This document shows, piece after piece, positions 23,350 through 63,091 of a stretch of DNA of 64,000 nucleotides. The position numbers and the translations under genes are program-made. The number at the start of each line of letters is the position of its first letter. Within the stretch, counting starts at the first letter, position 1. The notes under the pieces are model-generated. The model worked only from the letters and a program-made list of their open reading frames with translations. It made no database searches and was not told the DNA's origin. Origin of the DNA: Selaginella tamariscina (lineage: Eukaryota; Streptophyta; Lycopodiopsida; Selaginellales; Selaginellaceae); the NCBI GenBank assembly GCA_003024785.1, contig PUQB01000013.1, positions 372,001 to 436,000 on the forward strand, in the 5' to 3' direction.

Positions 23350-24180
23350 ATAAAGAGATTCATGAGTTATCACATATATAAAATAATTTAAAAAAGAAAA
23401 AAGGAGTTATTATCACATACACATAATAATTCGAGAGAGAAAAAAAGAGTTTTATTATATATACATAATAACTTACAAAGAAAAAATTATCATATACACA
23501 CTAATTTAAGTTGTAGGATTAAAGATAGAGGGAGAGAGTTAAGTTATAAGAGGGAACATACATATAATAATTTTAAAGAGTTAAAAGAGAAGTTACATAA
23601 CCATTAAAAATATAATTAAGTTATCACATAAAGTAGTTAAAGGATAACAACTAGCTTTAAAGGTTTAATTTAAAGCTAAACTCATTTGATTAAAGATAAT
23701 AACTAACAATATAATTAAAAAGTTATTTGCATATATATAAGAATAAACTCACCATGTTAAGTAATCTTAATAATAAACTTTCTAAATTAAAGGTTTAAAC
23801 TTGTTAAATTAAGAATAACAACTAAGCTAATAATCATTAAATAGTTAAATAAACTTAGAAATTTAAAAATAAACTCATCAAAGTTGGATCCAATTTATGA
23901 ATAAACTCACTAGATTAACCTATTATTAATAATTAAGTTCACCAACGGTGCACGTACTAGTGTGTGTGTATACACACACACACATATATAGATATATATG
24001 TAAGTTTACTTAAATATCAATAAAACACTAGTAATTAATTAATTTTACTTATTACATATAATATTTTGTAGGTTTAATGCTTTTGAATAAGTTTTAATTA
24101 ATAATTATATGGAATTCCTTTACATATAATTAATAAATTTTCATAATTTATTTATGTTTCTTATGGTAATGTATACAGAT
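23350..24180. other. AT-rich noncoding DNA with GA/AT repeats
   Basis: Contains loosely repeated 'gagttattatcacatacacataataa' units (23355-23520) and a TG/CA hairpin near 23960. No gene recognised. Confidence 0.5.
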
Positions 24181-24224
24181 GTGTGTGTGAAACTCAAAAA
24201 CTATATGTGATCCATCTGAGCGTG

Positions 24225-25502
24225 CGTATGGATGGAAGAGTCCCTCAGAAACACGTACGCGTCTGCTTTACGGAGATGTGGCGAAACAGGAGCATTACAA
24301 GACGGCAAATCCATACACAAGAAGATCACGCTCACTCGCGCCTTAGAACGCGACGTCTTCCTGCTCAACCTCGTCGTGCAAATGTACGGAAAATGCAGCA
24401 GCGTGGAGGACGCACGTACGACATTCAACAGGATGCCCAACAAGAACATATTCACGTGGAACCTGATGATTGGTGCATATGCCCAGAATGGGCATCACAA
24501 GGAGGCAATTGCCCTGTTCGCTGAGATGAATTGTCGGCTGACAAGTGTCACATTCGTTGGTGTCCTCAATGCCTGTGCCGGTCTTGGTGAACTCTCCCAC
24601 GTGGTAGCTGTTCATGCACGAATCGAGCCTGACTTGATTGAGCGAGAGCTTGTTCTTGGCACTGCACTTGTCAATGCCTATGAGCTTACATCTAGCAGGT
24701 GTGTGTGTGCGTGTGCGTATGCGTGTGTGTGTGAAACATGTGTTCCAGGTGAAGTGTTTGAGAGGATGAAGAACAAAGACGGGATTTGATACAATGCAAT
24801 GATGTCCGCGGATGCACAGCATGGGGAGTTCACGTGTGCGTTGACTCAGTTCCAGAAAATGCAGCTTGAAGGGATACCAACGACCACCACTACAATCCTG
24901 AGTTTCGCAGCATGCTGCAGAGACTCGAATATTACGAACAAGCAAGTGTTTGACATGGGATTGGACGTTGACATTAACACAATGAACTCACTTATAACAA
25001 TGTAAGTCCTTACGGATACTTGTATATGCACACACACGTACTGTACTGCACAGGTATGCAAACTGTGGAAGTAGGGGTTTAACTGGATGCGAAAGAGAGA
25101 TGTTATTACGTGGAATGCAATGATCTCCGCACACGTACAGTGTGTGGTGAATACAGAGCCGCTTGGCATCTCTATAGGAAGATGGACCTCGAGGGTGTCA
25201 AATTCGAGGTCGTGACTTTCCTTACTGTCCTCCGTGCTTGTGAGGCAGTCTCCGATGGTACATACATTCGTTTACCATTTTTTATAACAATAAAATCCTT
25301 TGTTACAGGGGTGGACGTACATAGCCGACTTAAGGCTGCTGGTTACGACAACTGTAGAGTTGTGGGAACCTCACTTCTGAGCATGTATGGAAGATGTGGG
25401 GATCTTGAGTTACCCAACAGAGAGCAGACGTCGTACAATGCGATGATCACACAGTTCGTACAGTATGGAAAACACACTGAGCCTTCCAGTTATGGAGCTT
25501 GA
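24225..25502 (+). pseudogene. PLS-type PPR protein, broken
   Basis: Plus-strand pieces read as successive PPR repeats: YASALRRCGETGALQDGKSI, VVQMYGKCSSVEDARTTFNR, NIFTWNLMIGAYAQNGHHKE, TSVTFVGVLNACAGLGELSH, then YNAMMSADAQHGEFTCALTQ, VTFLTVLRACEAVSDGT and SLLSMYGRCGDL. A stop at about 24787, a (TG)n-containing insertion at 24700-24735 and lost repeats show decay. Family members edit or stabilise organellar RNA. The segments at 25005-25055 and 25257-25310 look like short introns (gtaagt..cag; cag at 25309). The gene runs straight into the inner edge of the right inverted-repeat arm at about 25497, so the repeat may have cut off its 3' end. Confidence 0.8.
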
Positions 25503-25684: not shown

Positions 25685-25920
25685 ATGCACGTTGTAACTA
25701 AAATGGGCATGTTTATAGTCCCATTTTTTAAAAATATTAGCAGTTTTAAATATTTAATTAGCATTTTTTAATATTAAAGAAATATTCTTTAGAATAATAT
25801 ATGTTTAAAGAAAAATTTAAATATATATTTATTAAATAATTAATTAATTTAAGTATTAATTAATATTTATTTTTTATTCCCATTTTCCTATATCTTGCCC
25901 ATTTTAGTTACAGTGTGCAT
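25685..25920. mobile_element. 236-bp MITE, deletion derivative of the 31864-46532 element
   Basis: Ends are ATGCAC...GTGCAT with inverted repeats of about 25 bases that share GTAACTAAAATGGGCA. The 4-bp direct repeat CAAA flanks it (25681-25684 and 25921-25924). The matching place in the other inverted-repeat arm (3321-3324, TTTG) has a single copy and no insert: a natural empty site. The first ~115 bases match the inverted right end of the 14.7-kb element, including a GTCCCATTT block, TTTAATTAGCATTTT and AATATTCTTTAGAATA. The last ~105 bases match its inverted left end (AAAATGGGAATA, ATTAATTAATACTTAA). Confidence 0.92.
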
Positions 25921-29063: not shown

Positions 29064-29499
29064 GTTGGGAGAGTTAAAAGTGGGTAATGGACAAAGAGCT
29101 ATTTGCTACTGACTAATGCTACTTATGCTGATAAATTGTGTTGGCACAAAATAAAGACCAATGAGGATGGCTTGGCCACCTATAGAGGATGACTTGGCCA
29201 CCTATAGAGGATGACATGGATATCTATTGAATGATGACTTGGTTACCTAATTGCTGCCCTTGGAGAGCTCATGCCGTTCATTGGAGTTGGCACCAAATGA
29301 AAATGACTGGGACAACTTATGTCATTCATTAGAGTTGGCACTAGATGAAGTACGACTGGGAGAGCTTATGCCGTTTATTGAAGTCAACACCAAATGCAGT
29401 ATGAGCTTATGTCATTCATTAGAGTCGGCACTAAATGAAGTACAAAGAGGATCACTTGTCAACTAAATCGGGGATGACTTGGCTACCAAACTTAGGTCT

Positions 29500-31100
29500 A
29501 TATTGTGGCAAAAAATTATTTTATCACTAGTATCGACTAGGGAAGCTATTGCTAACCACCTAAATTGGCATAATATATTAAAAGTTTATGCATTAGAATT
29601 AAACTTGCATCTACTATATATTAAAACTTTGTACTACCAGTAATGCCAACTAAGGAAGATAATTGCTAACCACATGAGTTGGCAATCTGAGCTAACATAA
29701 TATGTGAAAAAGTTTATGCATATGAATTGAACCTAAGTCTATTATGTGGCAAACCATTGATTACCACTAATGTCAACCAGGGAAGCTATTGCCAACCACT
29801 TGAGTCATCAACTTGAGTAGACATAATATGTTAAAGAGTTAGTCACACCAGGGTCTATTGTGTGTCCAAACTTTGTACTACCACTAATGCCAACTGGGAA
29901 AGTTATTGCTAATCACTTGAGTTGGCAACCTAAGTTGACATAATATGTTACAAAGTTCATGCATGGGATTGAACTTGAGTTCATTGTTTGGCAAAACTTT
30001 GTTCTTCAAAACTTTGTTTCCCACTAGTGCTGATTGGGGAATCTATTACTAACCACCTGAGTCGGCAACCATTATCTTGGAAGTTCATGCATGAGAATTA
30101 AACTTATAAGTCTACTTTGTTAAAAAGTTCATACATGAGAATCAAACCTTGGTTTAATGTGTGGCAAAACTTTGTTCTCCCATTAGAGTCAATTGGGGAA
30201 TCTATTGTCGAAGACCTAAGTTAATGACTTGAGTCACATATTATGTTAAAATGCATGAGAATCAAACCTTAGTCTAATGTGTAACAAAACTTTATTCTCT
30301 CACTATTGGCAATTGAGGAATCTATTACAGTTGGCAACCTGAGTCACATATTATATTAAAAGTTCTTACATAGAATTGAACTTGGGTTTACTATATTAAA
30401 AAGTTTATGCATGAGAATCAAACCTTGGTCTAATGTGTGGCAAAACTTTGTTCTCCCACTAGTGTTATCTAAGAAATCTATTATCAACCACCTGAGTTAA
30501 CATAATATATTCATCCCACTAGTGTTATCTAAGAAATCTATTATCAACCACCTGAGTTAACATAATATATTCATCCCACTAGTGTTATCTAAGAAATCTA
30601 TTATCAACCACCTGAGTTAACATAATATATTCAAAAGTTCATGCATGGGAATTGAAGCTAGGTTTATTGTGTTGTAAAACTTTGTTCTACCACTAATGCC
30701 GATTAGAGAAACTATTGCTAATTGCCTGAGTTGGCATAATATATTATAAAGTGCATGCATGAAAATTAAACATGGTGGCAAAACTTTGTTCTCCACTAGT
30801 GTTGAATAGGGAAGGTATTGCCAATCACCTACAAAGTGCATGCATGGAAATTAAAATTGAGTCTACCGCTAATGCCAACTAGGAAAACTTATACTAATCA
30901 TATGAGCTAGCATAATATGTTAGAAAAGTGTATCGCATTAGAATCAAACTTACATTTGTTCTATGGTAAATGAATTTTTACCACTAGTGTTGATTTGGAG
31001 AGCTTACGCCAATCATCTAAGTCGACATAATATCATCTGAGTTCTAGGTTTATTTTGTGACATGATATTATTTTATCATTAGTGATGATTATGAAATGTA
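29500..31100. repeat. Degenerate minisatellite, inverse of 1-1110
   Basis: Irregular units built around 'ggcaaaactttgttctcccactag' and 'gttcatgcatgagaatcaaacc'. It belongs to the right arm of the inverted repeat. The short frames in it are not genes. Confidence 0.7.
30476..30642. repeat. Perfect 60-bp tandem repeat, nearly three copies
   Basis: A 60-base unit containing CCCACTAGTGTTATCTAAGA and ending in CATAATATATTCAT is repeated exactly, with no base differences between the first two full units. It sits within an otherwise strongly diverged minisatellite. Confidence 0.95.
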
Positions 31101-31859: not shown

Positions 31860-31863
31860 ATGT

Positions 31864-31889
31864 ATGCACATTGTAACTAAAGTGGGCAT
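31864..31889 (+). repeat. Left terminal inverted repeat of the large transposon
   Basis: Begins ATGCACATTGTAACTAAAG. It pairs with 46507-46532. The ~100 bases inward match the right end of the 25685-25920 MITE. Confidence 0.9.
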
Positions 31890-32171
31890 GATACGTGAAA
31901 ATGGGAATATAAAATAAATTACTAATTAATACTTAAGTTTTAATTATTAATTAATCATTTAATTAATATGTAATTAAGCCTTAAATATTAATTAATTAAT
32001 TAATTAATCCTTCAATAACCTTACTTAGTAAGGAATATTCCTAAAATATCTTAGAATATTCATATTATTCTAAAAATAGTTTACAATAATGAAGAAATAC
32101 TATCAAACATAATTACAAATGAAATCATTTTCTTATCAACATGTTAATTTTTTATAAATACTTTCTTTCTA

Positions 32172-33314
32172 TCATACAAAGAAATTTTTCATTTTGTCTA
32201 AATCATCACTCTCCGGATTAATCAAATCATTTTGGTCAATATCTTGATGTTGTTGCCACCACTTAACACTCTCACGAATGCAATTGGGAGTTGCCATCCT
32301 TGTTAATACATAAGATGTGATAAGAAAGGTCTGCATAAAGGCTCATCTAAAAACTGACGTTCCTTAAGAATAATATTATAAAGCGCCCGGTTGCTATCCT
32401 TCATTTTATAAAATTCAATATCACGAGAAAGAAAAGCTTCAGGAAATGTATGATACGGTGGATACTGCTCACAAAAATTTTCGAGATTCTTCTTTCTGAG
32501 GCACGTATCCAAGTAGTTCACTAGCTCATCCATGATATCGGTATCAGAATATGGATCGAAAGTGATTGGATGAATACAAGCAATGTTTTGGTTGAGCATA
32601 GCCTTCTGAGGAGAGTCGTCTACTACTAACATCTGTGCGTTCTTCATTATCCTTAAGCGACTGATCTCCCCATGAGTCCCAATTATTCTTTCATTCTTGA
32701 AGAAGTATGGCTTGCTTTCCTTTCTTATATTGTGAAATTCGAGAGGTTTATAACATATTCGCTGGTCAAAAATCCAATCTTTACGAATCACCTCTTCTGC
32801 AACACTACAATGTTTCTTAAGTAAATTCAACAGCGGTGTTAAGTTATGAATCTGCATGCATGACCAAATCCCCACAAGCGCACCCATCTCCTTAAGCTTT
32901 TGAAAGAGACGATCCAACCCTGGACGAAAAATAATATCATATCGAAATTTACCATGACAAGGAATGAAATCTCCTTGTTTGATTTCTTTTTTCTATCCTG
33001 GGCCTTTGTCGATGAAGCAGAACACCATTGACATCCAACAACACAATATGGCCATGAGTAACATGAGATAGCGTTGCCTCTTGAATACTTTGCAAATCAC
33101 TTGTTTGCTCCCTTTCACATTTATCCGTTGCCACTATCTCGTTGCCTATCCCTTCATCATTTAATTGTACATCATCCTTACAAGATTCAGATATTGCATG
33201 CGCTGAAGAAATTGATTTCGGAATTGAAGCCAATAAAAATGATGATGAAGTGGCCCCCATGGTAACGATGTTTTGAGCTGCATTATTATCCATTTCCTGC
33301 ATGAACTCTGTCAT
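32172..33314 (-). pseudogene. FCP1/HAD-type phosphatase-like protein (frameshifted)
   Basis: Minus strand. A low-complexity N-terminal part from Met at 33314 leads to HIVLLDVNGVLLHRQRP (about 33040-32990). This is motif I of the FCP1-homology (NLI-interacting factor) branch of the HAD superfamily, with DxN in place of the usual DxD, as in some plant 'DVNGLL' members; the general acid/base Asp is therefore absent. A one-base shift in an A-run near 32995 joins it to QGDFIPCHGKFRYDIIFRPG, then ALVGIWSCMQIHNL (motif II area) and MLVVDDSPQKAMLNQNIACI (motif III VDDSP), followed by DIMDELVNYLDTCL. After a second shift near 32320 the frame continues to KWWQQHQDIDQND and a stop at 32172. Such proteins dephosphorylate RNA polymerase II tails and other phosphoproteins. 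It lies 270 bases downstream of the ParB-like gene in the same direction and may be a captured host gene. Confidence 0.75.
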
Positions 33315-33585
33315 TCTGACATGTGGCACAAGAAATTGTCGCCAAACCCCTCTCTTACCTCATGCAATGCTGAAAATCCATGTTCTCAATTATTTCATTA
33401 CATCTGCAAAATGATAATTAGCTGACCTTAAAATTATCAAGGTATATTATTTACCTTGTTAATGTGTGACCCATGTTTGAACTAAAAGCTTCATTAATCC
33501 TTGAGAATTTATTTTCTGTACAAATATAAAAGAAATATACAAAAATGCCTTATGTTACACTCATTTACAACTATTCATCACTCTA

Positions 33586-36500
33586 TCAATTCATTATCAA
33601 TTCTTCTTCGCTATTACCTTCTGAGTGAGGCGAAGAAGGTCTAAGCCGCTTGTGAGATGGTTCAAGATCTTCTGCATCTTCTATTGATGTTTCCATGGGT
33701 CCTGGAGTGTGCGAATGTTCTGTACTCCTCGAGATAACTTCCGGTCTAATATCTGATTGAAGTTCGTTCTCAGACTCCGAGATTGAACCAGATTCACCTT
33801 CAGAGCTATCGCACTTATCTGGAGGGAACTTTCTCAAATACGCCTTTATGGATTCGTTGGGGTACTCAGTTGAGACCCAATCTATCCACTTGTTCAGGTC
33901 CTCAACCATGGTCTTATCCTTTTCAACGGCAAACACACATGTATGCCGAAGGTAACACTCCTTCAAGACGGACCCCCTAGTGCAGTAGTCAAAAACCCAC
34001 GCATCACTGTGAGGACCCCTAATCAAGTTGACGATGCTCCGTGCCGCTTGACTTGTAATGTTTGGATAACGTACATTGCCGAATACGTCACTCATACCTA
34101 TCGGTGTATCGGATGGAGGTTCAGGGCCGTTGGAGTGCAAACAGATGCCTGGCCAGTCATTTGGAAGCTTGAAATTGTTTGGCGCATTCCTAACAACCAA
34201 GTGAACAACGGTATCAATGCACTTGGGATTAGCATCGTTCATATAAAATCCTGTCCAACGATGTCTATTCTTCTTGGCGAAGGCGAAGGCAAAAGTATCG
34301 GTGACATGAGCAAGAATCAAGAAATAAATACCTGAAAAAGTAGGTATCAGTGAAGAGCGCAAGCATGAATTCAATAATAAATACCTTCTATGTATATGCT
34401 TGCACGGCTAAGTTTCTCCACCAGATCCTCTAGTGCCCTATCTGTCGAAAGATTTTTTGACACCCGCCGATCCATCACGAACAATTGAAACGGTTTCCTA
34501 CAAGCAGTGATGTTACCCCATAAAGTCTCCGAATCTAACAACAAACATCTGTAGGGCTTGTCGTGATTCGTAGCATCCTCCTTTATAAGGTTCAATTCGG
34601 TTCTCCGCTGCTGAAGGACTGCCATAAGAGAAGGCGTCATCCCAATGTTCTCCTTTTTGGCGTTGGCGTGCAATAGATTCTTGCCTAGATCTTCCGATTG
34701 GTTCACCCATTCGACAAGCATATCATCGTTCGTCACATGCAAATATTTGCTGACCTCTTCATATGTTGAAGTCGAGGTCCAACCCAGTTTGTGGCAGTGT
34801 ATTCCCAACCACTCCTTGAAATGCCTGACCGTCTTCAACTCCATTGCCTTGAGATGAAAAGGAGAGGTTGGGCTGCTGTTATTAATTTGTAGTTTGCCAT
34901 CGATCACCAAATCAGCCAAGACTTCCATCTCCTCCATCGTTGTTCCATTTAAAGGCTTCAACCATGTGAGCTTGAAATCGTTGTCTACATCCTTTGTAGA
35001 TTGAACAGACTTAGCCTTCGGCGTCTTACTGGGTTTCTTTGCAGACTTTTCTGAGGGCTCCCCTTCACTTGTCTGCTTCTTCTTCAGTGTTCCTTTTGAA
35101 AAGGATTCCATAATCCCCAACCATTTGGCAAAGATCCTATCTTCGGGGCAAGAAATCAACATCATCAGAAAGGATGTTTCCTTCCCGCCCACCTGGGCAA
35201 AATCAACTGCTGCAATTTCTTCAACTCTCTGAGGAAAAAGACAGATTAATATACCGGCGAGATAAATCCCGCCCAAACAATTTGCTTACCCGGTATTCCG
35301 CAGATTGTGTATTCCCTGCGGTAGCTCTTTGTGGTCGCTGAAGAGATTCCCACACGGCTCGCGTGTGTTTAAACTTCTCCCATATTTTGCTGTTGTAGTG
35401 GTTGGTGTCGGCAGCGTCCCATTCCGCCGATAACTTATGGTACTGCTCGATTGTGAGATTCGGCTTAGCTAAAAACGCCGATCTTTTTGTCAGCTTCTCA
35501 CGGGTATGCTCGGAAAGTTTTGTTGCCATCGTTCCTTTGTTGTGTTCATCGAGAAGTCGTTGGGCTGCCGTTATTGTGTGCTGGCCACTAATGATGTAGT
35601 ACTTGATAGATTTTTATTCTCCGTCTGAATCTTCATGAGTTGTTCTGGTGTTGTGATCCAGACTTTGTCAGCGCCCTTCCTTCTTTCATAGTATGGACAC
35701 AAAACAGCATTATGTGGAACGGTATAAGAATTGTCGTCCTTCATCTTCTCCATGAGCTCAGCTACACGTTCCTGGTTGAGTGGCCTGTAATTGAAGTTTG
35801 GGTTGACGCTGCAATATTTAACCCTACAAGGATAAATCTTATCATCCAACATCATTTCCTTGTGACTTATTGCAGCATGAGATGCCACAGGTGCAGCTGA
35901 CAAAACGATTGATGATTTTCTTTTGCGATCCGAATCAACATGTGTGATCCCCGACTGCAGCTGTTCTAGTGTTCTCGGCACACTCTTCCAGCTCCCAAAG
36001 CTTCCTAAGCAAATTGAACGTGATCTGTAGAGAACCTGAGACCGAGCCACCCTCTCAATCTCCTTATGATGTCGCTGTGTTCTTCTTCAATGTGAAGAGG
36101 GAAGATTGCTCCACTTGCTGATTTTCTGTATTGTGAAGCAATATCTCCTGACAATACACCTACTCGATGAGTCTGAAGATTTCGAAGTAGACATCCAGAT
36201 GGATCCCCTCCATAGATGGGCTTTCGTTGAGTTGAAGAAGAACTCCAAGGTCAACATCATTAGTGAACACGTGAACGTCATTATCCACAAGTCGACAAAA
36301 CCACCCGAAATTAATGTTGTAACTGACGACCTCTGGATCCGAGAACGTGACATTGGATGGAACAAGGCATATGTGTCGAATCGTCCAATCTGGGTTCGCA
36401 GCCTGCTTTCGGGTGCTTGACTAGCGAATCTACTTTCCATTGTTTTGCTTGTCCATGAGATGTGACAGAGGTTAATTTGACAGCACCATGGTTGCTCCAA

Positions 36501-36724
36501 TGCGCTTCCCATTTATCTTAAAATATGGCCAAGTTGATTCCAGAATCCCCCTGCCCATCTCTTCTCCTGCTCTTGTCTTTAATGTCACCTCAATTCCACA
36601 TCTGAATACAAAAATGATTAGTTCAAGTATCCGAGTATAACAGATTTTATTTTAATTCTTACCCAGAATTTGACGACGACTCCATACTAATGACTCGATC
36701 TCCTTGTTTGATCAAATCGTCCTT
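33586..36724 (-). pseudogene. ParB-like domain / DNA-methyltransferase-like fusion (broken)
   Basis: Minus strand, four exons by splice signals: 36724-36663, 36601-35290, 35228-34385 and 34331-33586, with introns of 61, 61 and 53 bases. No start codon was found. Exon 1-2 begins DDLIKQGDRVISMESSS and later DPEVVSYNINFGWFCRL. The ParB/sulfiredoxin-like part reads NYRPLNQERVAELMEKMKDD, then KYYIISGQHTITAAQRLLDE (35610-35550), the pattern 'RP.....RV.EL...I' plus 'Y.II.GqHR..AA'. A one-base deletion in an A-run near 35615 separates the two. Exons 3-4 read FQLFVMDRRVSK (possibly a ruined DPPY motif), IEGIYFLILAHVTDTFAFAF, then VFDYCTRGSVLKECYLRHTC followed by VFAVEKD, resembling motif I of amino-methyltransferases. 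The tail is acidic, Ser-rich, with KRLRP. ParB-methyltransferase fusions are known in phages and bacterial mobile elements. Several other shifts and stops lie in 36.5-36.0 kb. The ParB call is firmer than the methyltransferase call. Confidence 0.6.
35256..35273. repeat. Lone palindrome-array unit inside a ParB-gene intron
   Basis: GGCGAGATAAATCCCGCC is a two-base variant of the 18-bp array palindrome, identical to a unit near 38360 in array I. It lies in the 61-base intron 35229-35289, 1.8 kb from the nearest array. Confidence 0.85.
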
Positions 36725-36827
36725 CTGCAAAATAATACACTATGAATACAAATCATATAAAAACGCACACACACTTGTATAAACCCGAATATACAAAAAT
36801 AATACACAGAGAGAAGTAGACGTAATT

Positions 36828-36914
36828 AACTGTCCGAAGCTCACATTTGTGCTAGTGCAAAAGAAAGATAACATTTCGTTTTAGAACCACCACAAATGTG
36901 AGCTCTGGACAGTT
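36828..36914. repeat. 87-bp hairpin with 24-bp inverted arms
   Basis: Arms 36828-36851 and 36891-36914 (AACTGTCC..AGCTCACATTTGTG) pair with two mismatches around a 39-base loop. It sits just upstream of the first visible exon of the ParB-like gene. It could be a tiny foldback element or a structured 5' leader. Confidence 0.75.
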
Positions 36915-37024
36915 TTACATAGATTCCTAGCTTTTACTCGAAATATTATGATAAGATGATAAAAGTAAATAAAATGAGATATGCAACTTATATATACTAA
37001 TACACATATATATTCACATGGAAG

Positions 37025-38460
37025 GTGCGGCGGGATTAATCTCGCCACCCCTTCAATGCCTCCTGAAAGAGTGGGCGGGATTAATCTCGCCACCTTTCTG
37101 GAGGCCTTGAACGGGAGTGCGGAATTAATCTTGCCACCCTTCTCGGTCTCAGAGAGAACTGGGCAGGATTTATTTCTCACACCCCTTCAGTGACTCCAGA
37201 AAGGAGGCGGGATTAATCTCGCCCACCATGTAAGGGATGGTTAAATGAATTTCCCCACCCTTCCCATTCTCTCCATTGGTATGTTGAAAACCTTCTACGT
37301 CTCAGACAGAAACGTTTGGGATTGGTCCGACTCACCAATGGAGAAAAAAGGAAGGGTGGCGGGATTCATTCCTCCAACAGGCATTGAAGACTCGGCGGGA
37401 TTAATCCCGCCGCCCAGGGCCTTCACTCGGTCCCTATGCGGCGGGATTAATCCCGCCGGACGCCAATTCCCTGCGCGGAATCGGGCGGGATTAATCCCGC
37501 CGCCTAGGCACTTCAGGCAGGCCAATGGCGGCGGGATTAATCCCGCCCGATTCGCGCAGGGAATTGGCGTCGCGGGATTAATCCCGCCTCCCAGGCCCTT
37601 CACTCGGGCCTTAGTCGGCGGGATTAATCCCGCCGAACGCCAATGCCCTGTGCGAAATCTTGCGGGATTAATCCCGCCGCCTAGGCCCTTCAGGCAGGCC
37701 AATGGCGGGGATAAATCCCGCCCGATTCCGCGAGGGCATGCGTACGCGGCGGGATTAATCCCGCCCACCATGTAAGGGATGGTGAAATTAATCCCACCAC
37801 CCTTCTCAGTTCCCTCCATTGGTATTTTGTAAACCTTCTCCGTCTCAGACAGAGTTAGTCGGGATTGATTCAACATACCAATGGAGGAAAAAAGAAGGGT
37901 GGCGGGATTAATCCCGCCACCGGGTAATGAAGGTTCGGAGAGACTAATCCCGCCGCCCTCTCGTAAATCATGCGCTCACACATATATATTGGCTGCGGCA
38001 TTTTGAACAGGGATGGGTGGGGGCGGGATTAATCCCGCCGCTTATATCCTGCGGAAGTGCCTGAGCGGCGGGATTAATCCCGCCGCCCTCCGCGAAGGGC
38101 ATGAGCGTGGGGCCGGATTAATCCCGCCGTTCATGTCCTGCGTGAATTCCCTGGGCGGCGGGATTAATCCCGCCGCCTTACGCGCAGGACATGTCATGCA
38201 GGCTCTTCGGTTAGCCTTCCGTGCAGGATCTTTCATGCAGGCTCTTCGGTTAGCCTCATGAGCGGCGGGATTAATCCCGCCGCCCATCCCCTGTAAATGC
38301 CCTGCGCGGAATCCGGCGGGATTAATCCCGCCCATTAGGGCCTTCACACAGGCCATTGCCGGCGAGATAAATCCCGCCATTCCGCAGGGCATGGGTGAGC
38401 GGCGGATTAATCCCGCCGCCGAGGCCAACCTATAGCGGCGGGATTAATCCCGCCGCTCGA
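37025..38460. repeat. Palindrome array I: ~28 copies of GGCGGGATTAATCCCGCC
   Basis: By eye about 28 exact or near copies of the 18-bp perfect palindrome, centres mostly 40-50 bases apart. Spacers are GC-rich and partly repeated or inverted: 37462-37501 and 37530-37568 form ~39-base inverted arms, and a ~155-base unit with a CCATTGGTATGTTGA hairpin occurs at 37206-37360 and 37747-37905. Degenerate copies show C-to-T or G-to-A changes at the CpG steps (for example ATCTCGCC, ATCCCACC). Both strands have long open frames here (to 193 codons, GGINPA/AGLIPP repeats), but these are by-products of the palindrome. The array lies upstream of the minus-strand ParB-like gene. Confidence 0.95.
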
Positions 38461-38469
38461 GGGGCTTAG

Positions 38470-39620
<1,151 letters not shown>

Positions 39621-39979
39621 TGCACAGCCGCCGTTGCCGATTTCACAGGCCGCCGCCTCTTGAAACCCTAAGAATATACCTAAACCCTAAAGGAATTAAA
39701 TATATATATTAACCCTAATAGAATATTCCTTCTGAGAATATACTTAAACCCTAAAAAGAATAAAATATAGATTTGCCCTAAACGAATATTCTTTCATTAT
39801 ATTATTAGCGCGTGCGTGTGCGTGGTGTATCACATACACCCCAAAAATATAAATCCAGGGATTTAACATGTGTGTGTCCATGAGAGTGTTAAAGTTTCAT
39901 GTGTATCAATACATACATACACATTGCATATATTAATACACATAATATACATACACACGTGTATACACACAGACATACA

Positions 39980-40530
39980 TACATATTACATGGGTTTAGG
40001 GTTTAGGGTTTAGGGTTTTGGATTTAGGATGGATCATGCATGGTGTGTATGTATGAGAGAAGAAAGAGTGTTACTTACACATATTATACACAGATATACA
40101 TACATAATATATAAGAGAAGAGAGACAGTACATATTATGGATCATGCATGGTGTGTATTATACACACAGACATATATACATATTAGTACATAATATTAGA
40201 GAGACCGAGTACATATTATAGATCATGCATGGTGTGTATGTTTGAGAGAAGAGAGACAGTACATATTAACATGGATCATGCATGGTGTGTATGTATGAGA
40301 GAAGACAGAAAGTACACATATATACATACAGAGTACACATATATACATACACACGTGTATACACACAGACATACATACATATTACATGAGTAAATTCATT
40401 GTGTTACATATTAGGGTTTAGGGTTTAGGATGGATCATGCATGGTGTGAAGAGAGAGTGTTGAAAAATTATTTTTGTACACACATGTATACACAGGGTTT
40501 AGGATTTACGGTTTAGGGTTTGCTCCCAAC
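39980..40530. repeat. Interstitial telomere-type TTTAGGG runs with a GGATCATGCATGGTGTG repeat
   Basis: Short runs of the plant telomere heptamer occur at about 39990-40016, 40413-40428 and 40495-40530. Between them a unit containing 'ggatcatgcatggtgtg' and 'gagagaagagagacagtacatatta' is repeated about five times. The heptamer runs are too short to be a functional telomere. Confidence 0.85.
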
Positions 40531-40781
40531 AAGCTTAATATAAATATTACACATGTAAATTCAATGTGTTACATACACACAGATTGAGTACATATATCAT
40601 ACATGCGTTGAACATGATGTTTTCAATAAAGAAGCAACATATTTCTTTAGTTTGGTTTAGGGTTGTGCATGTGTGTGCATATGTGTTTTTGTAAGTTCTT
40701 GTAATGCGTGTGTAAATTTATGATTGTGTTTATATATGTGTGCAAAACAAACATCGAATAATTAAGAAAATAATATTAATA

Positions 40782-41193
40782 AACACACTATGAACATATT
40801 TTAAATTATACATAATAATATATGATTTTATCTAATATATAGCCATATATAGTTTTAATAATATATATTAATTTAATATTGATAAAAAGGTTTAACATTG
40901 AAATATTCTTGAAATAATAAGAAATTAATTGAGAAAATCCCATTAATATATACAAATGTAAATTAAGTACTCAAATAATTAACTAAATTAATTATCATAA
41001 TTATGTTTAATATTGGAATATTCTTGGAATAATAAGAAAATAATAAAGAATATTCCATTAATATAAAGAAGATTAATTACTCAAGTAATTAAGGAAATGA
41101 TATTAATATATATATTATTAAAACTATATATGACTATATATTAGATAAAATGATGTATTATTATGTATAATTTAAAATATGTTCATAGTGTGT
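40782..41193. repeat. ~90-bp inverted repeat embedded in AT-rich direct repeats
   Basis: 40782-40870 and 41103-41193 are inverse copies ('cactatgaacatattttaaa' / its complement). Each is followed by the same direct-repeat block ('aatattcttgaaataataag', 'gagaaaatcccattaatata'), which recurs four or five times from 40890 to 41400. No gene is visible from 40530 to 41640. Confidence 0.8.
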
Positions 41194-41639
41194 ATTAATT
41201 TAATATTGATAATAAGGTTTAACACATGAATATTCTTGAAATAATAACAAATTAATTGAGAAAATCCCATTAATATATACAAATGTAGAATAATTACTGC
41301 AATAATTAAGAACAAGACTAATTTAATTATGATAATCAGGTTTAATATTAGAATATTCTTCAAATATTAATAAAATATGAAAGAATATCCCATTGATACT
41401 AGGAAATGAAAACTAAATACTCGAGTAATTAAGAAAATAATAATAATAAACAGACTATGAATATATTTAAATGATACATAATAATATATCAATTTATTTA
41501 TTGTATAAGTATATATTATATATATATATATAATATAAATATACTTGAATACTAAGAATGTAGAATATAGTCTAAAATTTCGTAATATTAAACAGCTTGA
41601 ATCACTTGAATAACATTAAATGCAATTTTAAAATACTCA

Positions 41640-41950
41640 TTGGAACTGGAGAGTATAAATGTCAGAGTGTCGGATATTTGTGTCAACTCATCTTAAACTT
41701 TATTTTCTGTTCTTTTTAAAAAATTTGAATTTCTGACATATGTATTGTCGGTCTGACATGTAAATTTGAAAATGCATTTAATTTCCCACTCAAATTCATA
41801 TCTGGTTCTTTCTCCGGCAAGGGTTTCTTCATTTCTGTATTTTTCACTCTTTATATCTTCTTTTTTCTTCATAGTGATCATCTCAGGAGCGAGATTAAAT
41901 TGGGTGCTATTCTTTATAGGAAAGCACAGCGCCTTTAGTGCTGTTTACAA
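41640..41950 (+). promoter_or_regulatory. Possible 5' exon/leader of the transposase gene
   Basis: Base composition rises here, and a consensus donor (TTTACAA followed by gtaagtatt at 41951) could pair with the acceptor 'atttatgtgcag' ending at 42868. That would make the leader intron span array II. The coding frame does not continue across this join, so if real it is untranslated leader. Confidence 0.3.
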
Positions 41951-42114
41951 GTAAGTATTATAAACAAATTTAAAAATACTTATAAAGATTCACTCTCTTA
42001 CATTCTCTCTTAAAATTACAATTTAGGGGTTTAGGAATGCATTAGGATTATAATATATTCCGTTAGGGATTTATCCCATTTAAATATCCTTTTAACTTAA
42101 TATTCTAGGTTAAC

Positions 42115-42722
42115 CGGGGCGGCGGGATTAATCCGGCCATTTCTTTTTCGCCTCTTCGAAGAGGTGGCGGGATTAATCCCGCCATCATCTCTCGGGCAAT
42201 GCTTCTCCGCCACTGAAAAAGAGTGGCGGGATTAATCCCGCCGATAACCTTCTCAATTAATGAAGAGTTACCAGAATTTATTAGAAAGAGTTGTCGGCGG
42301 GATTAATCCCGCCAACCATTTTAGGAGGCAGGGAAGGGGTGGCGGGATTAATCTCGCCACCACATCCCTGTTTTAAGGATTTGGGGACAGGATTTATCCC
42401 GAGATCTCTTTGAAATCATAGTTTTGGAGAGAGTTATGTGCGGGTTTAATCCCGCCACCCATTCCCCGTCGTAAGAATTGTGAGCGGGATTAATCTCGCC
42501 GACTCTCTCCGAAGGGGTTGAGTCGGCAGCGGGATTAATCCCGCCGACCATTCCTCGTCAGAGAGAGTCGGCGGGATTAATCCCACCGGACTCCCCCGAG
42601 GAGGAAGTCCAAGGCGGGATTAATCCCGCCGACTCTCTCCGAAGGGGTTGAGTCGGCGGCGGGATTAATCCCGCCGACCGTTCCTCGTCGGAGGGATTTG
42701 TGGGCGGGATTAATCCCGCCCA
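42115..42722. repeat. Palindrome array II: ~13 copies of GGCGGGATTAATCCCGCC
   Basis: Same 18-bp palindrome as array I, with about 13 exact or near copies 40-60 bases apart. The spacer 'gactctctccgaaggggttgagtcgg' is repeated in the last third (42500 and 42630). The array ends about 150 bases before the transposase ATG. Confidence 0.95.
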
Positions 42723-42874
42723 TCAGTTGTATTAATCAAACATGAGATATTATCTCTAAACATAATTATGTATTATTGCATATGCATATTATTAAGTAAC
42801 CGTAATTCAGATTTCTTAGAAATATTGCATAAACAGATATCATAAATAATACAATTATTTATGTGCAGGATAAT

Positions 42875-45640
42875 ATGTTTAATACTGGAGATAAAGTATG
42901 TCTTCTTCGGAACAACGAGATAGTTGGCACTGGAACTGTGGAAGTTCGAGATAATAATGCATCATGTCACAATATTGCCCAAGGATCTTGTGTGTACGTA
43001 TGGGTGAACACCATTTACAAGCATGTTGAGGTTCTGGGAATGGAATTTGAGGAGGGTTCTCCTGTATTGTGGAATTTGGATGAAGTCAAGGCTGACACAG
43101 AATATGCAGAGTCACAAACAAATAGTAGCACAAGTTTACCAGATGATGGCTTGCCTGCTGTGATGGATGAGGTGATTCTCTTTCTTCGTGAGATTGAAGT
43201 CGGAAGAGGCATCATCACAGCTATAAATCCAATGGAAGCAGTGTCAGAAGAGAAACTAGGGTCCGACTTCGTGGGTGTAGTTGTGACAGAGGTTTCACCT
43301 AATGGCACATTGTATCCTGGATCCCTCATGAGGTGGCGAACATCTGAATTAAGATGGCAAGATGGTTCAACATATTCTGGGTTGGATTTCAATAATAACA
43401 ACCCGGAAGAACAACTCATATTTGAAGAGGTTCCTTGCATTGGTCCTATTGTAAGAAAAAGGCGATTCATGGGTTGTAGATCTTCCCCTGCAAGTTTCAG
43501 CAAGAGGGTAAAGATGGATCCTACATCTTCCGAAAGTGTTACGAGCATTTCCACGATTGATTGTTGCAAGAAGAAGTGTTGTCAGATGGCAGACCGGAAT
43601 GAAATTACCCAATGTAGACATGTCTTTCGTATGCTCACCCAAAAGCAAAGGCATGAGTTTGTATATGCTGCACTAACTGGGTGTATTGATGGAATGGCCT
43701 CGGACACAGGTTATCAGAGTACATCCATGGTATTTAATAAGGTGGCCATCTGCTTCAAAGCTTGGTACAATATATACGGGATCCCAAAGACCACGTTCTA
43801 CCGTCGGAGGGATGAGTGGCTAGATGGAGCGCGAACCTCAGTTCATGGGAACACTCGCTTGGTCAAAACCCGCTCTCACATCATGGCAGCCATAGAGATA
43901 CTCAAGGCTTTTGTGGAAGCAAATGCAGACAGGATGCCTCACAAATGCCGAACCACAAATGCAGGGGTCAGGGAAAATCTCAAGGTTTTGCCTTCAATCT
44001 ACACTCAATTGAAACTGTGTGAACATGTGAACAAGTGCCTCAGTTTGATGGGGCTCCAAGCAATCTGCACTGGTACCTTCAACAACATATGGAATACTCA
44101 TTTTAAGGATGTGGAGATTGCAAAACACTCTAGCTTTTCCAAGTGTGACACTTGTACATCATTGAAGGCTGCAAAGGCTTGTGCAAAAACCTTGGTGGAG
44201 ATCACTGCCATTCAAAGGAAGATGGAGGCCCACATGATTGCACAACAAACTTGCCGGTCTCAGTACTATGCACACTGCATGCTTTCTGTGTCACGCCCAT
44301 CAGAGTACCTGTGCTTGATCCATGACAAGATGGATCATTCAAAGACCAGCATTCCAAAGCTCTTTGCAACACCAAAGTGCCTTGGAAATGTCATGAAACT
44401 TCCGATTTCATTGACAGGTGTGCTAACACATGGACACGATTGTGAGTCATATGGACACTTTTCACTTCCACATTGGTCTAGCGACTCCAATTTCACTATT
44501 GGGTCGTTAGCCATGTGTTTCAGAAACCTTGAAGCCCACTCACAGACAAGTCCTATCAGTGATCTCAAAGTGAAGAAACAACACCTTCAACCTTTACATA
44601 ATGCTCTCATGAACACATCTGCACTTGAGGCTACTTGGGAATATGAGAGGCATTGTCAACAGCCTACACAGAAAATAGATGGCCCTGTTGAGAGTTCTGG
44701 TTCAGTGGAGGGATCTAGCTCAAATAGTGTACATGTGTCCTCAACATCAAATAAGCTTCCTCGTTATTTGCTTTTACAGATGGATAATTGTGCAGGCGAG
44801 AACAAAAATAGGTAAATCATTTTACTTAAGGGTTTCTCAAGCTCATACTTACTTTTATTTTCTAGATATGTGCTAGCATACTTGTCAATGCTTGTTGCCA
44901 AAGGTGTGTTTGAAACAATCACGCTCAGTTTCCTTATGGTTGGTCACACTCATGAAGATATTGATGCGTTCTTCAGCAAGGTCTCCAACTCTACAAAAAG
45001 GACAAGTGCACTTACCTTACCGCATATGATGAATCTTTTTGAAAATTGCATCTCCAAAAAAAGTTGTGCTTTGCTTGTGACTGAGGTGCCAGACTTCAAA
45101 AAATTTCTCAAGGAGTATATAAAAGAAGGGAGTGATTCTTTAGTTGGTCACCTTGTGCCGCTACAATTCTTTTTCTCCATACGAGATGGTATACCTATTA
45201 TGCAGTACAAGTTACGGCCATCAGAGCAGGAGTGGTTACCAAAAGAGGGGTTAATGCTCTTCAAAAGTGGAGAGGATGGAAAGCCACTTCTCCCAGAAGG
45301 ACAACCAGACCCTATTCCATTGAGTGCCCAGCTCAAGGAACAAGAGGTTATTATTGATGGCATCAAAAAATATGTGGCATGGGTTCAAAAATCGATGCCA
45401 AAGAATTCTGATAAGGCAACTGGTTACTCAGAACTATATAAGCATGTGGTCAACTATTGGGAGACTGTTGTTCGAGAGTTAGAAGGGCCTATTGTCACAA
45501 GTACAGAATTGCAACACCCTTTCTGGCCTAAAACAAGGTGGCGAGAGGAGATTGAAATGACATCACTGAGCATAGATGACATAGAAGCCAGTAGTGATAT
45601 GGAAGTGCAAACCCCACACTTTGTTGGACAAAGGAACTAA
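42875..45640 (+). CDS. DUF7869-like DDE transposase
   Basis: Two exons, 42875-44811 and 44866-45640, joined by a 54-base GT-AG intron that splits an Arg codon, give about 903 residues to the first stop. ATG 42875 is chosen as the first Met in frame. An upstream acceptor (…gtgcag at 42868) suggests that a leader intron precedes it. N-terminal region: NTGDKVCLLRNNEIVGTGTV and GSLMRWRTSELRW, probably protein/DNA interaction modules. Then come a Cys cluster DCCKKKCC, a helix-turn-helix-like YGIPKTTFYRRRDEWLDG, and a zinc-type FSKCDTCTSLK. Catalytic core: LIHDKMDHSKTSIPKLF (Asp484/487), LLLQMDNCAGENKNRYVLAY (Asp637) and FLMVGHTHEDIDAFFSKVS (675-679). The Asp-Asp-His-x-Glu-Asp layout is that of RNase H-fold transposases. 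In-frame sequence continues past the stop with two more stops (PIWMGQIIDTPE ... KVAWFKPQKT ... ERYNGCLEKTW to 45916), so the C-terminus is probably cut short. Confidence 0.85.
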
Positions 45641-45960
45641 AAACCTAAAGCATACTTTGATTGCTGCAAGGATCTTCAAAAACTAATGATGGTTCTCATT
45701 ACTCCAGATGCGTCATATAATTAGCCTATTTGGATGGGTCAAATTATCGACACACCTGAAGTAATCACAAAAAATAGTATTGTTAAGGTTGCATGGTTCA
45801 AACCACAAAAAACGCGACACGAGAAGGAGAGCGAAAGATATAATGGATGCCTAGAGAAAACATGGTCTCCCAATCAAAAAGACCCAGCATGTTTTATAAA
45901 TGTTAAATCCATTTGATATGGGTGGATGTCAAGAAGCGTTGATAAAGTCACGATTAACAA
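45641..45960 (+). pseudogene. Detached C-terminus of the transposase
   Basis: In the same frame as the transposase, after TAA (45638-45640), are PKAYFDCCKDLQKLMMV, a TAG near 45722, then PIWMGQIIDTPE and WFKPQKTRHEKESERYNGCL up to a TGA at 45914. The W-x-G-x-I ... V-x-W-F-x-P pattern suggests a small beta-barrel domain. The simplest reading is that point mutations created these stops in a formerly longer protein. Confidence 0.6.
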
Positions 45961-46506
45961 AACTGCAAGGGAATGTATGTTTTCTGAAGCTTAAAGCAAT
46001 TACAAAATTATAAAATATTATATATTTAATATTCATAATTATTATAAACTCTTTAATAATAGTACCAAATTGTATACTTAACTATATAAATTTAAAAAAT
46101 GATATGGAAGATTGACTATATTATTATAGGATTTTATATATATATTATTACTACTACAAATTTTTAATTAATAATGTTATATTTAAATATTAATATTTTA
46201 ATAACAACATCAATATTTATATAATGTACCTCTTATGCTCTTCCTTAATTGTTATATTAGGCAATATATTATATAATTTAATACCTTCTACTTTTATAAT
46301 GTTATTAATTTTTGTTCAATGAATGCTATAATTTATTAAAGGGTAGAATACAAAATAGAATATTCTAAAGAATATTCTCTTTTCAAACATATATTCTAAA
46401 GAATATTCTCTTTTCAAACATATATTCTAAAGAATATTCCTTTAATATTAGAAAATGCTAATTAAATAGCTAAAATTGCTAATTATTAGGAAATGGGACT
46501 ATAGCT
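45960..46506. other. AT-rich right subterminal region of the transposon
   Basis: No gene. A ~29-base unit 'tattctaaagaatattctcttttcaaaca' is repeated about 2.5 times at 46350-46440. The last ~115 bases, inverted, match the left half of the 25685-25920 MITE. Confidence 0.7.
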
Positions 46507-46532
46507 ATGCCCATTTTAGTTACAACTTGCAT
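46507..46532 (-). repeat. Right terminal inverted repeat of the large transposon
   Basis: Inverse begins ATGCAAGTTGTAACTAAAAT. It is followed by the target-site duplicate ATGT (46533-46536). Confidence 0.9.
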
Positions 46533-46829
46533 ATGTGAAGTGCTTAGGCCTTACAAAAGCTGGATAGACTCTTTATGGGGGTTATTCTTAGTGTGTTCCA
46601 GCTTCAGGATTCTTTAGCACAAGGAGGTATACAAACACCATTAGAAACATGGAACATGTGTAGCAAATGATGTGATTTTATTCAAGTCCTTCAACATGTT
46701 ATCGTCCTCCTTATATAAAGATCCTTCAAACGAGTGTTGCCCAAGCACTTGACATGTGGGTTATTAAAAAGGAATAGACTTAACAACAAAGGAAGCAAAA
46801 GTTCTCAAGGTGAAAGCTTCAAGCTAGAA

Positions 46830-46997: not shown

Positions 46998-47394
46998 TCA
47001 GGCCCATCTACTAGAGAACATTAACCGCTTCTGAGACGAGAGGATGGTGTAAGGTCCACATCTACTAGAGAACATTAGCCAGTTAGGAGAGGAGAGGATG
47101 ATGTGAGGGCCATGTGTACAACTGCATGCACATATACATTACTAATTTATTAAAATTTTAATAATCTTAACATCAGTTTCAATATGAACCACTAGCTCCT
47201 GTAAATAGCTTAAATGTTTGGGGCTAATACAATATACATATTTCTATATTCTGAGTTGTGACAGTTCTAAATAAGGAGATTATATACAATAATACACACC
47301 TATATATATATATATATAATGTTTTGTAAAGAAGTATACGTTTATTAAACAATTTACATAGTATCAACACATAGGGTTAGGGTTTTAGCCGATA

Positions 47395-49406
47395 ATGGTG
47401 AAGCGGATGCGCTGCGAGATAGCAGTCGCGGAGCGTTTGCACGATCGCTTCGTGGAGGCATTCGGGAATCACGACATCGCTGTGCTGACGAATTCCAAGA
47501 ATTGGATTCCTTGCCTTCCAGATCCCGTTGATCCGGATACGAGCTACTGCTATATGGGTCGGCTACTTACGAGGGATATCCGCCAATTTATCTTGTTCGT
47601 AGGTCAGCTTGTCGGTTTTGAGGATCTTAGGGAAGATAAGACCGAGATTTTTCTTACAGACCGCAAGGTAATGGGATTTGTGTCGGGCGTCCCAGGTTAC
47701 GGCAAGTCTACATCACTCAAGACAGCGTTCGGCAATCTGTACCACTTTTTCCTGCCCAACATCCAGGCGAAGAACTCGCTCGAGAAGTACGCTGACAATG
47801 TGCGGAAGTGTGTGAACGAGCAACTTGCAGGCAAACTGGATCCTGCAGACATGAAGAAGATTGAAGAGGCCTTGGATAATGTGATTCATTTTCTCGACTC
47901 GAAGAAGCTGGCCCAAGTGGACGAGTATGAGGACAAGCAGAAGGAGCTCGAGGGCGTTTGCAATCCGATCATCGCCAAGGTCGCTGGAGCTTCTACGTCC
48001 GTTTCGGCCCCGAGAAAGCGAAAGCGGATTATGTACATCAACTGTGATGACCTTGTCGACCAACCCAGCAACACCATCGTGTCATCTCTTCTGCTTTCTC
48101 ACTTCGATGTGGTTCAAGACAAGAATCCGGAACTAATGGCATTGATTGAGCGTCCAGCTCTCGACGGCATACTCCACTTTATTCATGGCAGCAATCAGGA
48201 GGATGAGGTCTACATTCTTGTCGACGATGGTAATGCCATGGATCCAGATGACGATGAGCAGAGTAGCAAAAGTCACCGTCGGAAGTTTCCAAAGCAACAA
48301 TGAGACGAGACATGGAGTTTTCTGAGAAAACTCATGAAGTACTGTGCCATTGTAGTATGTGCGTATGTGAGAAGCTGGCATGTCCAATCTTTCATTAACT
48401 CCAAAGGATCTCCTTACAAGTTTTTTGGTGGAGGATTTACGGTAAGCTGGTGCTGTCAATCTCTGTGGCCTAACTAATACTGCTATGGTTTTGATTGTAG
48501 ATGAGCGAAAGGTCTGACTACTTGTCGCACAGGAATATAGTTCTAAGCAGCCACAACGAGGACGTGGCGGGGTGCGTGCCAAGACTTCTCAGCTGTCTGG
48601 ATTCTCCGATACAGCTGCAGGATTGCTACAGTTGGTATCAGGAAGGGATCCAGGCATTTGTCAAGAAGCACATTGACAAAGGGCGTGAAATATATCGGAT
48701 ATTCAGTGGCACAGAGAAGGTGGAGGAGCTGTTTGATGGTCTCAGCACAAGGTGTTTCTACCGTGGGCCTAATGGGACTGCAGAGTGCTTGACAAATCAT
48801 TTGAAGTCTTACGCACTTGGGTGTGTTGCTGAGCAGATGAAGCTTCAAGCCTCGATGGATGCCAAGCAGGAGATGCAAAGGTGGCTTTTAACTATTTGAA
48901 GTGACACAAACATATGCAGGATCGGGTGGAATGCAGAAACAGCAGGGATTATTGCACTCAGGCATATGTGTCGAGCATCGTTCAATCTAGGTTCATAGCA
49001 TGCTTTCGGATGCTTGACTAGCACACCCACTTCACTAGGTGTGGCTATAAATCTTGGACAGATTCGGGTGGTCCAAAACGAGGTGGATTCTGTGCAACAA
49101 GTCTTGCCGGATTCTATGCAACAAGTCTTGCAGGAACTTACGAAGGACGACAGCAGTTGGTATTTCAGTAGACCCGTGAATGAGGTTTTCAGGACAGCAT
49201 CGCTGGACGACTACCGCAAAGTTATCCACCGGCCAATGGATCTTAGCACGGTGCATACTAATCTGCTTTCGGGAAAGTATGCTTCTTCCGGGGAAGCGTT
49301 TGCGAAAGATGTGGAGCTTGTCTTTGACAACGCTTTGAAGTACAACCAGAAGAAGGACCCCGTTTTCTCGGCCGCACAGCATTTGAAGGATAAATTCCGC
49401 AAATAG
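47395..49406 (+). pseudogene. P-loop NTPase - bromodomain protein, copy 2 (nonsense mutation)
   Basis: Starts at ATG 47395 (MVKRMRCEIAVAERLHDRFV). Walker A is GVPGYGKSTS (residues ~103-112). A likely Walker B is VYILVDDGNAM. The frame reaches KFPKQQ and then TGA at 48301. Copy 1 has CGA (Arg) at that place, so this is a single C-to-T change. Beyond it the same frame continues MKYCAIVVCAYVRSWHVQ and FINSKGSPYKFFGGGFT to a 59-base intron (48442-48500), then MSERSDYLSHRNIVLSS. The C-terminal bromodomain reads SWYFSRPVNEVF, DYRKVIHRPMDLSTV, FAKDVELVFDNALKYNQ (acetyl-lysine-binding Asn in YNQ) and ends at 49406. It lacks the PHD part kept at 17.7 and 59.2 kb. A ~75-base foreign insert lies at about 48959-49033, and a frame change near 48890. 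The NTPase family is not one I can name. Confidence 0.75.
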
Positions 49407-61238: not shown

Positions 61239-63056
61239 TTACATACATATATTTAATTTATAATTGAATTTAGAATCAATTTTTAATGTATTTTCTGAAA
61301 ATATATTCTCTTTAATATTAAATATATATGTCCAAAATGTTAACGATTGACACTTACATTGGAAAGCAAAACATAAGCTGCAGGATCCAAATCTCTCAAG
61401 GTCCACCTTCGTTCGTCTGCCTTGTATATTACAGGCTCCAAGTACACATGTCAAATCCAGACCGTCAGGAACAAATGGCATGCTCGCAAGCAGCTCCTCC
61501 GCATACTGCAAATGCCCAGCCCGCGCCAGGACATCAACCATACACGAATAATGCTGCTTTGTAGGAGCCAAATCATAGTCCATAACCATAGAAAGAAACA
61601 TACTTCTACCAACATACACCTTCCCTGCTCTACTGCACGCTACCAACACCGAAACGAAGCTGAGTTCATCCGGCAACTCAGCAGCACTTAGAGTACTGAA
61701 TGTGAAACTCGCATTGTTAACATCCGAGTTGTGAACATACGCAGAGATAATGGTGTTCCAAGAGAGAAGGTTATGCTCCGGAAGCCTTCAAACAGCTCTC
61801 TTTGCTCTCTCCAAATGCCCATTCTGGGCATATGCAGTAATCATTGCGGAAGTTGTCACTAAGTTCTTCCTGCATATCATTGAACATCTCCTTAGCTTCC
61901 TGTATGTGTCCATTGATGGCATATGCAGTTAGCATTGCAGTCATTGCAACATCATCAGGAAACTCGATCCGATCAAACATCTGTTTTGCTTCGTTTAAAT
62001 ACCCAATATGACATAGGCAGTGAGAAGAAAGTGTACATCCCACAGTGTTCCCCTCCGGTAGTCTATCAAAGATATACTTCACACCTTCAATCTCTCCGCG
62101 TTGTATGTAAGCGTTTGTGATGGTTTTTAACGAAACCGAGTCCTGTTCCGGCATGTCTTCAAAGATCTCCCTCGCTTTTGACATATGCCCTTCTCGGGCA
62201 TATGCAGTTAACAAGATGGTCCAAGTGAGTAAGTTTCTAGCCGGCATTCTGAAGAAGATATCGGACGTGCCCATGAGATCACCGGACTGGAGATATGCAC
62301 AGAGAAGGGAGTTCCACGAAGGTATATCTGGACATTCAATTGTATCAAACACTGCTTTGGCCTCGGACAGATGCCCGTTCTGGGCATATGCGGAAACCAT
62401 TGCATTCGACAACACAACGTCGAGCCGAGGTGAGCTCTCAAAGACCCTCTTCGCGAGACTAAGGTGTCCTGAACTGGAGTGGAAGTCTACCATAACTGTG
62501 TACGTTACAAGGTTCTTCTGTGGCATTGCATCAAAACACTCAACGACTTGCTGCATATGCCCGTGTCCGGCATATGCAGACAGCATGGTGTTCCAGGAGA
62601 CCAGATTCTTACCCGGCATAGAATCGAACAACTTCTTTGTCTCCTCGAGACTATCCTCTGCAAACCACCATCATCACCGAGTTCCACGAAGAGATATCTC
62701 TACGAGGCATTGTATTGAAGAACAGCACAGCCTCCTGCAGATGCCCAGCTTGGGTATATGCATTCAACATGGAGTTCAGGCATGTTATGTCTATCTCCGG
62801 GAGCCTATCAAACACACTCTTGGCCGTCTCGAAATCCCCATTCTGAGAGTATGCATTCAACATGGTCGTGGCAGAGATTAGATTCAACTGCGGAATGTTG
62901 TGGTAGAGCTCTATCGCCTTATGTAAATGCCCATTCCTGGCATATGCAGTCAAGAGAGTACACCATACCACAAGGTCCCGTTGCTCGAGACTGTGAAACA
63001 TCCTCTCTGCTCTCTCAGCGTCCCCTACGTCCACCACTGCAGACATAACACAATGA

Positions 63057-63091
<35 letters not shown>

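Follow-up and report, generated by a model that had tools for sequence, protein, structure and literature searches.

The stretch of DNA analysed here (contig PUQB01000013.1 of assembly GCA_003024785.1, positions 372,001 to 436,000; 64,000 nucleotides, hereafter the window) carries a giant DNA transposon, probably of the cut-and-paste kind, in a probable lycophyte host; it most likely belongs to the Sola superfamily (Sola1 type). The element has defined ends, is present in high copy number, is flanked by 4-bp target-site duplications, and its copies show very low divergence from one another. Besides a predicted DUF7869 transposase, it carries on the opposite strand a predicted gene with a ParB-like middle, a phosphatase-like gene, and arrays of palindromes. 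The element and its terminal repeats are as follows:

31864..46532, forward strand: whole element, 14,669 bp, with the target duplication ATGT at 31860-31863 and 46533-46536
31864..31889, forward strand: left terminal inverted repeat, ATGCACATTGTAACTAAAGTGGGCAT
46507..46532, reverse strand: right terminal inverted repeat, whose reverse complement is ATGCAAGTTGTAACTAAAATGGGCAT

Ends and genomic copies of the element

The original prediction, made from the sequence alone, had described a DNA transposon with proven ends, consisting of 26-bp inverted repeats flanked by ATGT, and this description was borne out. The two inverted ends were identical at 23 of 26 positions, an identity of at least 22/26 being reached by none of 20,000 random pairs of 26 bases drawn from the window, and ATGT flanked the element on the left and on the right. 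The core of the ends was found at four places in the window, against 0.03 expected, which corresponded to both ends of the 14.7-kb element and both ends of a 236-bp element, the tiny second element that had also been predicted:

25685..25920, reverse strand: 236-bp non-autonomous relative with both ends present, duplication CAAA/CAAA

Since this small element could be aligned to both ends of the large one (116 bases at 87% on the right, about 106 bases at 84% on the left), it was regarded as an internally deleted relative.

A search of the host genome with the first and last 150 bases had been proposed together with the original prediction, and when performed on the 300.7-Mb assembly (1391 contigs) it revealed that many copies share these ends. 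The exact 34-base left end occurred at 1053 genomic places, and its reversed control at none. The first 150 bases were matched with 99-100% identity at 40 scored places (267 first-look candidates), 23 of which, the window's own included, were identical over the whole length; the last 150 bases were likewise matched, over their full length or over 142 bases, with 99-100% identity at 40 scored places (818 candidates), and one right-end variant was present at 18 exact places in the genome. Both ends were sought in 41 copies, the window's own included, and read in 29, of which 21 presented a perfect 4-bp duplication; when the flanks were re-paired at random in 10,000 trials, 1.1 duplications arose on average and never more than 8. 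These 21 duplications comprised 18 different 4-mers, mostly of A/T, without a fixed target and with TTAA in none, and the copies bearing them ranged from 7.1 to 23 kb. The count of 21 takes in C120, where the first base of the element is missing, and C80, where the one of two candidate left ends that had a duplication was counted. At C80, family left ends stand 249 bp apart (C80:563731 and C80:563980), a possible nested or tandem insertion. No 4-bp duplication was found in eight of the 29 copies (C993, C269, C158, C113:720232, C87, C91:570325, C91:221346 and C3), and the partner end was not found where sought in 12 of the 41 (C1084, C1013, C972, C948, L011, L018, L023, C864, C649, C575, C657 and C643), contig ends coming first in C657 and C643.

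The copies were very similar to each other. Pairs among 29 copies had a median substitution rate of 0.21% over the last 1.64 kb, a figure that takes in L034, misaligned through a nested end, and many pairs presented no substitution; the window copy differed from the others by 0.8-1.6% in this region, the misaligned L034 aside. The first 5 kb, cargo included, were found with 99.6% and 96.3% identity in two other copies elsewhere. This low divergence at the right end suggests that the family spread very recently; no such spread of an element of this kind in a lycophyte was found in the literature searched, which was mostly not of the subscription kind. Exon 2 of the transposase gene, with the C-terminal domain, was open over 372 codons in nine of 30 right-end loci (three could not be read from the anchor, and L009, the locus of the window, was read separately), and the window copy showed early stops near the transposase C-terminus. 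Copies otherwise without substitutions were separated by single-base insertions or deletions that break frames, and some frame breaks may therefore be assembly errors.

The DUF7869 transposase

42875..45640, forward strand: predicted gene of the DUF7869 DDD transposase, with 903 codons before the first stop and a GT-AG intron at 44812-44865

The intron was predicted by eye and from the continuity of motifs. The product carries the acidic motifs HDKMD (from residue 483), QMDNC (635) and GHTHEDID (672); the acidic DDD motifs were invariant across 37 DUF7869 relatives, and the structure model of one relative, P0001, presented the core order of an RNase-H-like fold. By these motifs and the modelled fold of P0001, the DUF7869 gene encodes a predicted DDD transposase, and the DUF7869-like transposase of the original prediction is supported. 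The TNP1/EN/SPM domain PF03017 was weakly matched in four of the 37 relatives. Foldseek returned nothing at E 0.001, Tn5 being top-ranked at E 0.01. MazF-like structure matches were set aside because, in those inspected, they covered the C-terminal barrel alone, which was read as a common small-barrel shape. A sequence search of solved structures with the transposase alignment gave no match, the viral contigs searched held no relative, no Pfam family named Sola was among the matches of the window frames or of the relatives, and no mention of DUF7869 was found in the literature searched.

The opposite-strand gene and the fern-type relatives

33589..36685, reverse strand: gene on the opposite strand, about 970 codons long and split into several predicted exons, with a ParB-like middle and a methyltransferase-like end (not significant)

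The start codon and exon borders of this gene were set by eye, and its frame is broken at positions that vary from copy to copy. Its product had no Pfam match at E <= 10, and among 5.8 billion proteins none of 2805 candidates reached E <= 0.001. Relatives were provided by a scan of prokaryote genome bins, which returned 11 DUF7869 loci (L099-L109), seven of them (L100-L106, the fern-type loci) in a single bin, which is labelled Trichormus. The cyanobacterium Trichormus azollae is the symbiont of the fern Azolla, and for this reason these contigs are probably fern DNA. A bacterial bin holding eukaryotic transposon contigs is a case of contamination.

In four of the seven fern-type loci (L102, L103, L104 and L106), a divergent gene sharing its middle segment with the window gene was placed upstream of the transposase, and the remaining three contigs start about 1.2 kb upstream of it. 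The score of the similarity between the window and fern-type middles was reached by none of 300 alignment shuffles and none of 100 profile shuffles, although hhalign gave a probability of only 4.8%. The shared segment centres on the motif GGSHSAEAR / SGQHTITAA, which presumably is ParB-like, and no HMM library (Pfam, NCBIfam, PHROGs) named a ParB domain in the opposite-strand or fern-type proteins. The predicted ParB-like character was upheld in part, by the fern-type similarity and the motif but by no HMM match. The methyltransferase-like character was clear in the fern-type relatives, where a later exon of the divergent gene matched the DNA methylase family PF01555 (L103, 4e-8; L106, 9e-8), but not in the window's own protein, whose corresponding part had no significant similarity to the relatives (33/500 shuffles), no clear methylase motifs by eye, and no match when the two methyltransferase halves were compared as profiles. 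An AlphaFold model of the fern-type protein was not taken further because of its pLDDT of 36.9.

The locus L103 contains a 7,724-bp element whose ends match at 26 of 33 positions, with AACA on both sides; it sits in a Gypsy retrotransposon, and the joined flanks restore one open frame across the site. In L106 the ends match at 30 of 37 positions, with no duplication seen by eye, and in the other five loci the right end was at most visible, or no end at all. The fern-type elements are like the window element in the DUF7869 transposase and the palindrome array upstream of it, in the divergent gene (four of seven), in the inverted ends (L103 and L106), and in the 4-bp duplication (L103), whereas they differ in size (7.7 kb in L103), in the PF01555 match of L103 and L106, in having their own end and palindrome sequences, and in that no phosphatase similarity was found in them.

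The phosphatase gene

32303..33359, reverse strand: FCP1/NIF-like phosphatase gene (PF03031, E 9e-9), frame broken in the window copy

The Pfam match supported the predicted FCP1-like gene, which showed a 296-codon open stretch in another copy. No similarity to it was found in the 11 DUF7869 loci of the prokaryote bins; among 669 candidates from the 5.8-billion-protein collection none reached E <= 0.001, and a sequence search of solved structures gave no match.

Superfamily assignment

The original prediction had recognized no named superfamily and had put forward the Sola group as the first comparison. The view that no named superfamily applies was not supported, given that Sola fits in its testable published traits and that an opposite-strand ParB-methyltransferase gene has been published for a giant element of the Sola1 type, as described in part of PMC12477816. 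According to the portions of PMC10741241 dealing with the superfamily, Sola elements have DDD transposases, 4-bp duplications and inverted repeats of 11-1124 bp, and measure 2-9 kb, some exceeding 15 kb. Passages of the same and other sources report Sola in the moss Physcomitrella (PMC10741241, PMC9033089) and Sola2 with cargo genes (PMC10741241, PMC3627910, PMC9033089). In the family described here, the 4-bp duplication was present in 21 of 29 copies and in the 236-bp element, the acidic motifs of the 37 relatives and the P0001 model indicate a DDD transposase of predicted catalysis, and the inverted repeats (26 bp) and size (14.7 kb) lie within the published ranges. As to the Ectocarpus-type trait, the opposite-strand gene and its orientation were present, ParB was named by no HMM, and the methyltransferase was significant in the fern-type relatives only. 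The element was filed as probable Sola1 type because the Sola traits fit and the gene layout is like that of the Ectocarpus element, an assignment made on published traits.

Among other superfamilies, piggyBac and Kolobok were rejected by the absence of the TTAA-specific duplication from the 18 different 4-mers among the 21 duplications. EnSpm/CACTA elements have CACTA-type ends and a shorter duplication; the ends ATGCA...TGCAT and the 4-bp duplication do not fit them, yet four relatives do match PF03017 weakly.

It is unlikely, although conceivable, that the DUF7869 transposase defines a separate, unnamed superfamily that has only the 4-bp duplications in common with Sola and gained its ParB-type gene independently. 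The absence of DUF7869 from the literature searched, the TNP1/EN/SPM matches, and the fact that no direct link was made to any Sola sequence argue for it. Against it, the 4-bp duplications, the DDD transposase and the size range fit Sola1, as do the moss presence of Sola (PMC10741241, PMC9033089) and the published Sola1 element with its gene on the opposite strand. Far less probable is a decayed composite, no longer mobile, in which unrelated genes and repeats were inserted into a small transposon. The early transposase stops, the broken frames of both cargo genes in the window copy, and the simple repeats that fill window positions from about 38.5 to 39.4 kb are in line with such an origin; nevertheless, the first 5 kb with the cargo are common to two copies elsewhere, the copies are near-identical at the right end, exon 2 is open in nine of 30 loci, and copies of 14-15 kb move as units with duplications of their own. 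A giant Sola1-type transposon remains the preferred reading.

Palindrome arrays and a proposed mechanism

37029..38457, no strand assigned: array of palindromes GGCGGGATTAATCCCGCC, adjoining the 5′ end of the opposite-strand gene
42121..42723, no strand assigned: immediately upstream of the transposase gene, a further array of this palindrome

The palindrome arrays of the original prediction were found again, GGGATTAATCCC occurring exactly at 23 places in the window, all of them inside the element at 37397-42717. Under a looser definition, and with spacer borders chosen after the arrays were seen, the element spacer (6,189 bases) held 36 palindromes, some being simple AT/GT repeats, whereas 43 lay in the remaining 57,811 bases of the window; the window as a whole held 79, against 16-29 in five shuffles that preserve single-base composition only. 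Similarly, in the eight loci L099-L106 the 8,807 bases upstream of the transposase contained 52 palindromes and the remaining 47,846 bases contained 28. Six of the seven fern-type loci shared the core GTCGATRC (or its complement) as a recurring upstream motif, which was found only once elsewhere in these six taken together, and L100 carried a variant of it. No such array was found upstream of the transposase in L107-L109, and the four palindromes of L109 were placed downstream of the gene. The array upstream of the transposase looks like a new feature, as none was found in print for such elements, in literature that was mostly not of the subscription kind and by searches not aimed at palindromes. 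In addition, the element contains an 86-base inverted repeat, 97% complementary, at 40783-41193.

The transposase would bind the 26-bp ends and excise the element, which it would then insert into AT-rich DNA at cuts staggered by 4 bp and with no fixed target; short derivatives such as the 236-bp element could be mobilised by the same transposase. As a candidate target, the palindrome arrays may be bound between the two genes by the divergent ParB-type protein, which from there may control transcription or cluster or mark the element's DNA. In the fern-type relatives, the DNA-methyltransferase domain that follows the ParB-type part may also methylate the element; in the window element, since this domain has no recognisable methylase motifs, binding is perhaps the sole role left. 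The phosphatase gene would be extra cargo.

More broadly, giant Sola-type transposons of vascular plants may carry their own ParB/parS-like system, in which a ParB-type protein, joined in the fern type by a DNA methyltransferase, is paired with matching palindrome arrays within the common promoter region, in order to mark, silence or cluster their own copies, a proposal that we regard as tentative and rather doubtful. There is an even chance that the arrays are sites of the transposase or of a promoter, or no more than tandem repeats that have expanded, and bear no relation to the ParB-type protein: tandem arrays expand easily, the binding is a prediction only, arrays are also found immediately upstream of the transposase gene where the contig (L100, L101, L105 or L099) breaks off short of any second gene, and the more distant L107-L109 have none upstream. 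On the other side, the position in the divergent spacer and the palindromic form recur in the window, in the fern type and in L099 despite differing palindrome sequences, and palindromes are concentrated in the spacers of the eight loci.

Surroundings in the window

Tandem units at 1138-1392 recur in similar form as the reverse complement at 29163-29442, and this inverted arrangement suggests a large inverted repeat of another element of about 28 kb. Three perfect 60-base tandem copies occupy 30454-30633. To the right of the transposon, a frame at 47389-48300 contains a P-loop-like motif, and because related peptide fragments occur near 19.7 kb (47716-48081 and 19656-20018) this frame could belong to a gene or element that is itself repeated. 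Frames resembling pentatricopeptide repeats, recognised by eye at 24147-25499 and 61242-63577, fit a plant host.

Comparison with known Sola elements

With this analysis DUF7869, a domain of unknown function, is linked to mobile elements whose ends are proven and which make 4-bp duplications, in two lineages that are probably plants, and a very recent multiplication of a 15-kb element is indicated. In print, the closest layout is that of Sola1-1_Ec32 of the brown alga Ectocarpus, which, according to the part of PMC12477816 devoted to it, measures 21.5 kb and carries on the opposite strand a gene for a 1104-aa ParB-like and DNA-methyltransferase protein. Its authors consider that this protein might bind the DNA of its own element and modify it (PMC12477816); that part of the source states no target, and the palindrome arrays offer a concrete candidate. 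Both are giant DNA transposons combining a transposase with an opposite-strand gene (1104 aa in Sola1-1_Ec32; about 970 codons and ParB-like in the middle here), a likeness by description of the layout, the methyltransferase half being unrecognisable in the window protein. Sola1-1_Ec32 differs in its brown-algal host, and no palindrome array, phosphatase gene or duplication length is mentioned in that part of its description. With Sola in general, as its published descriptions portray it in part, the window element shares the DDD transposase, the 4-bp duplications, the inverted repeats, the size range and the presence of cargo genes, which are known in Sola2.
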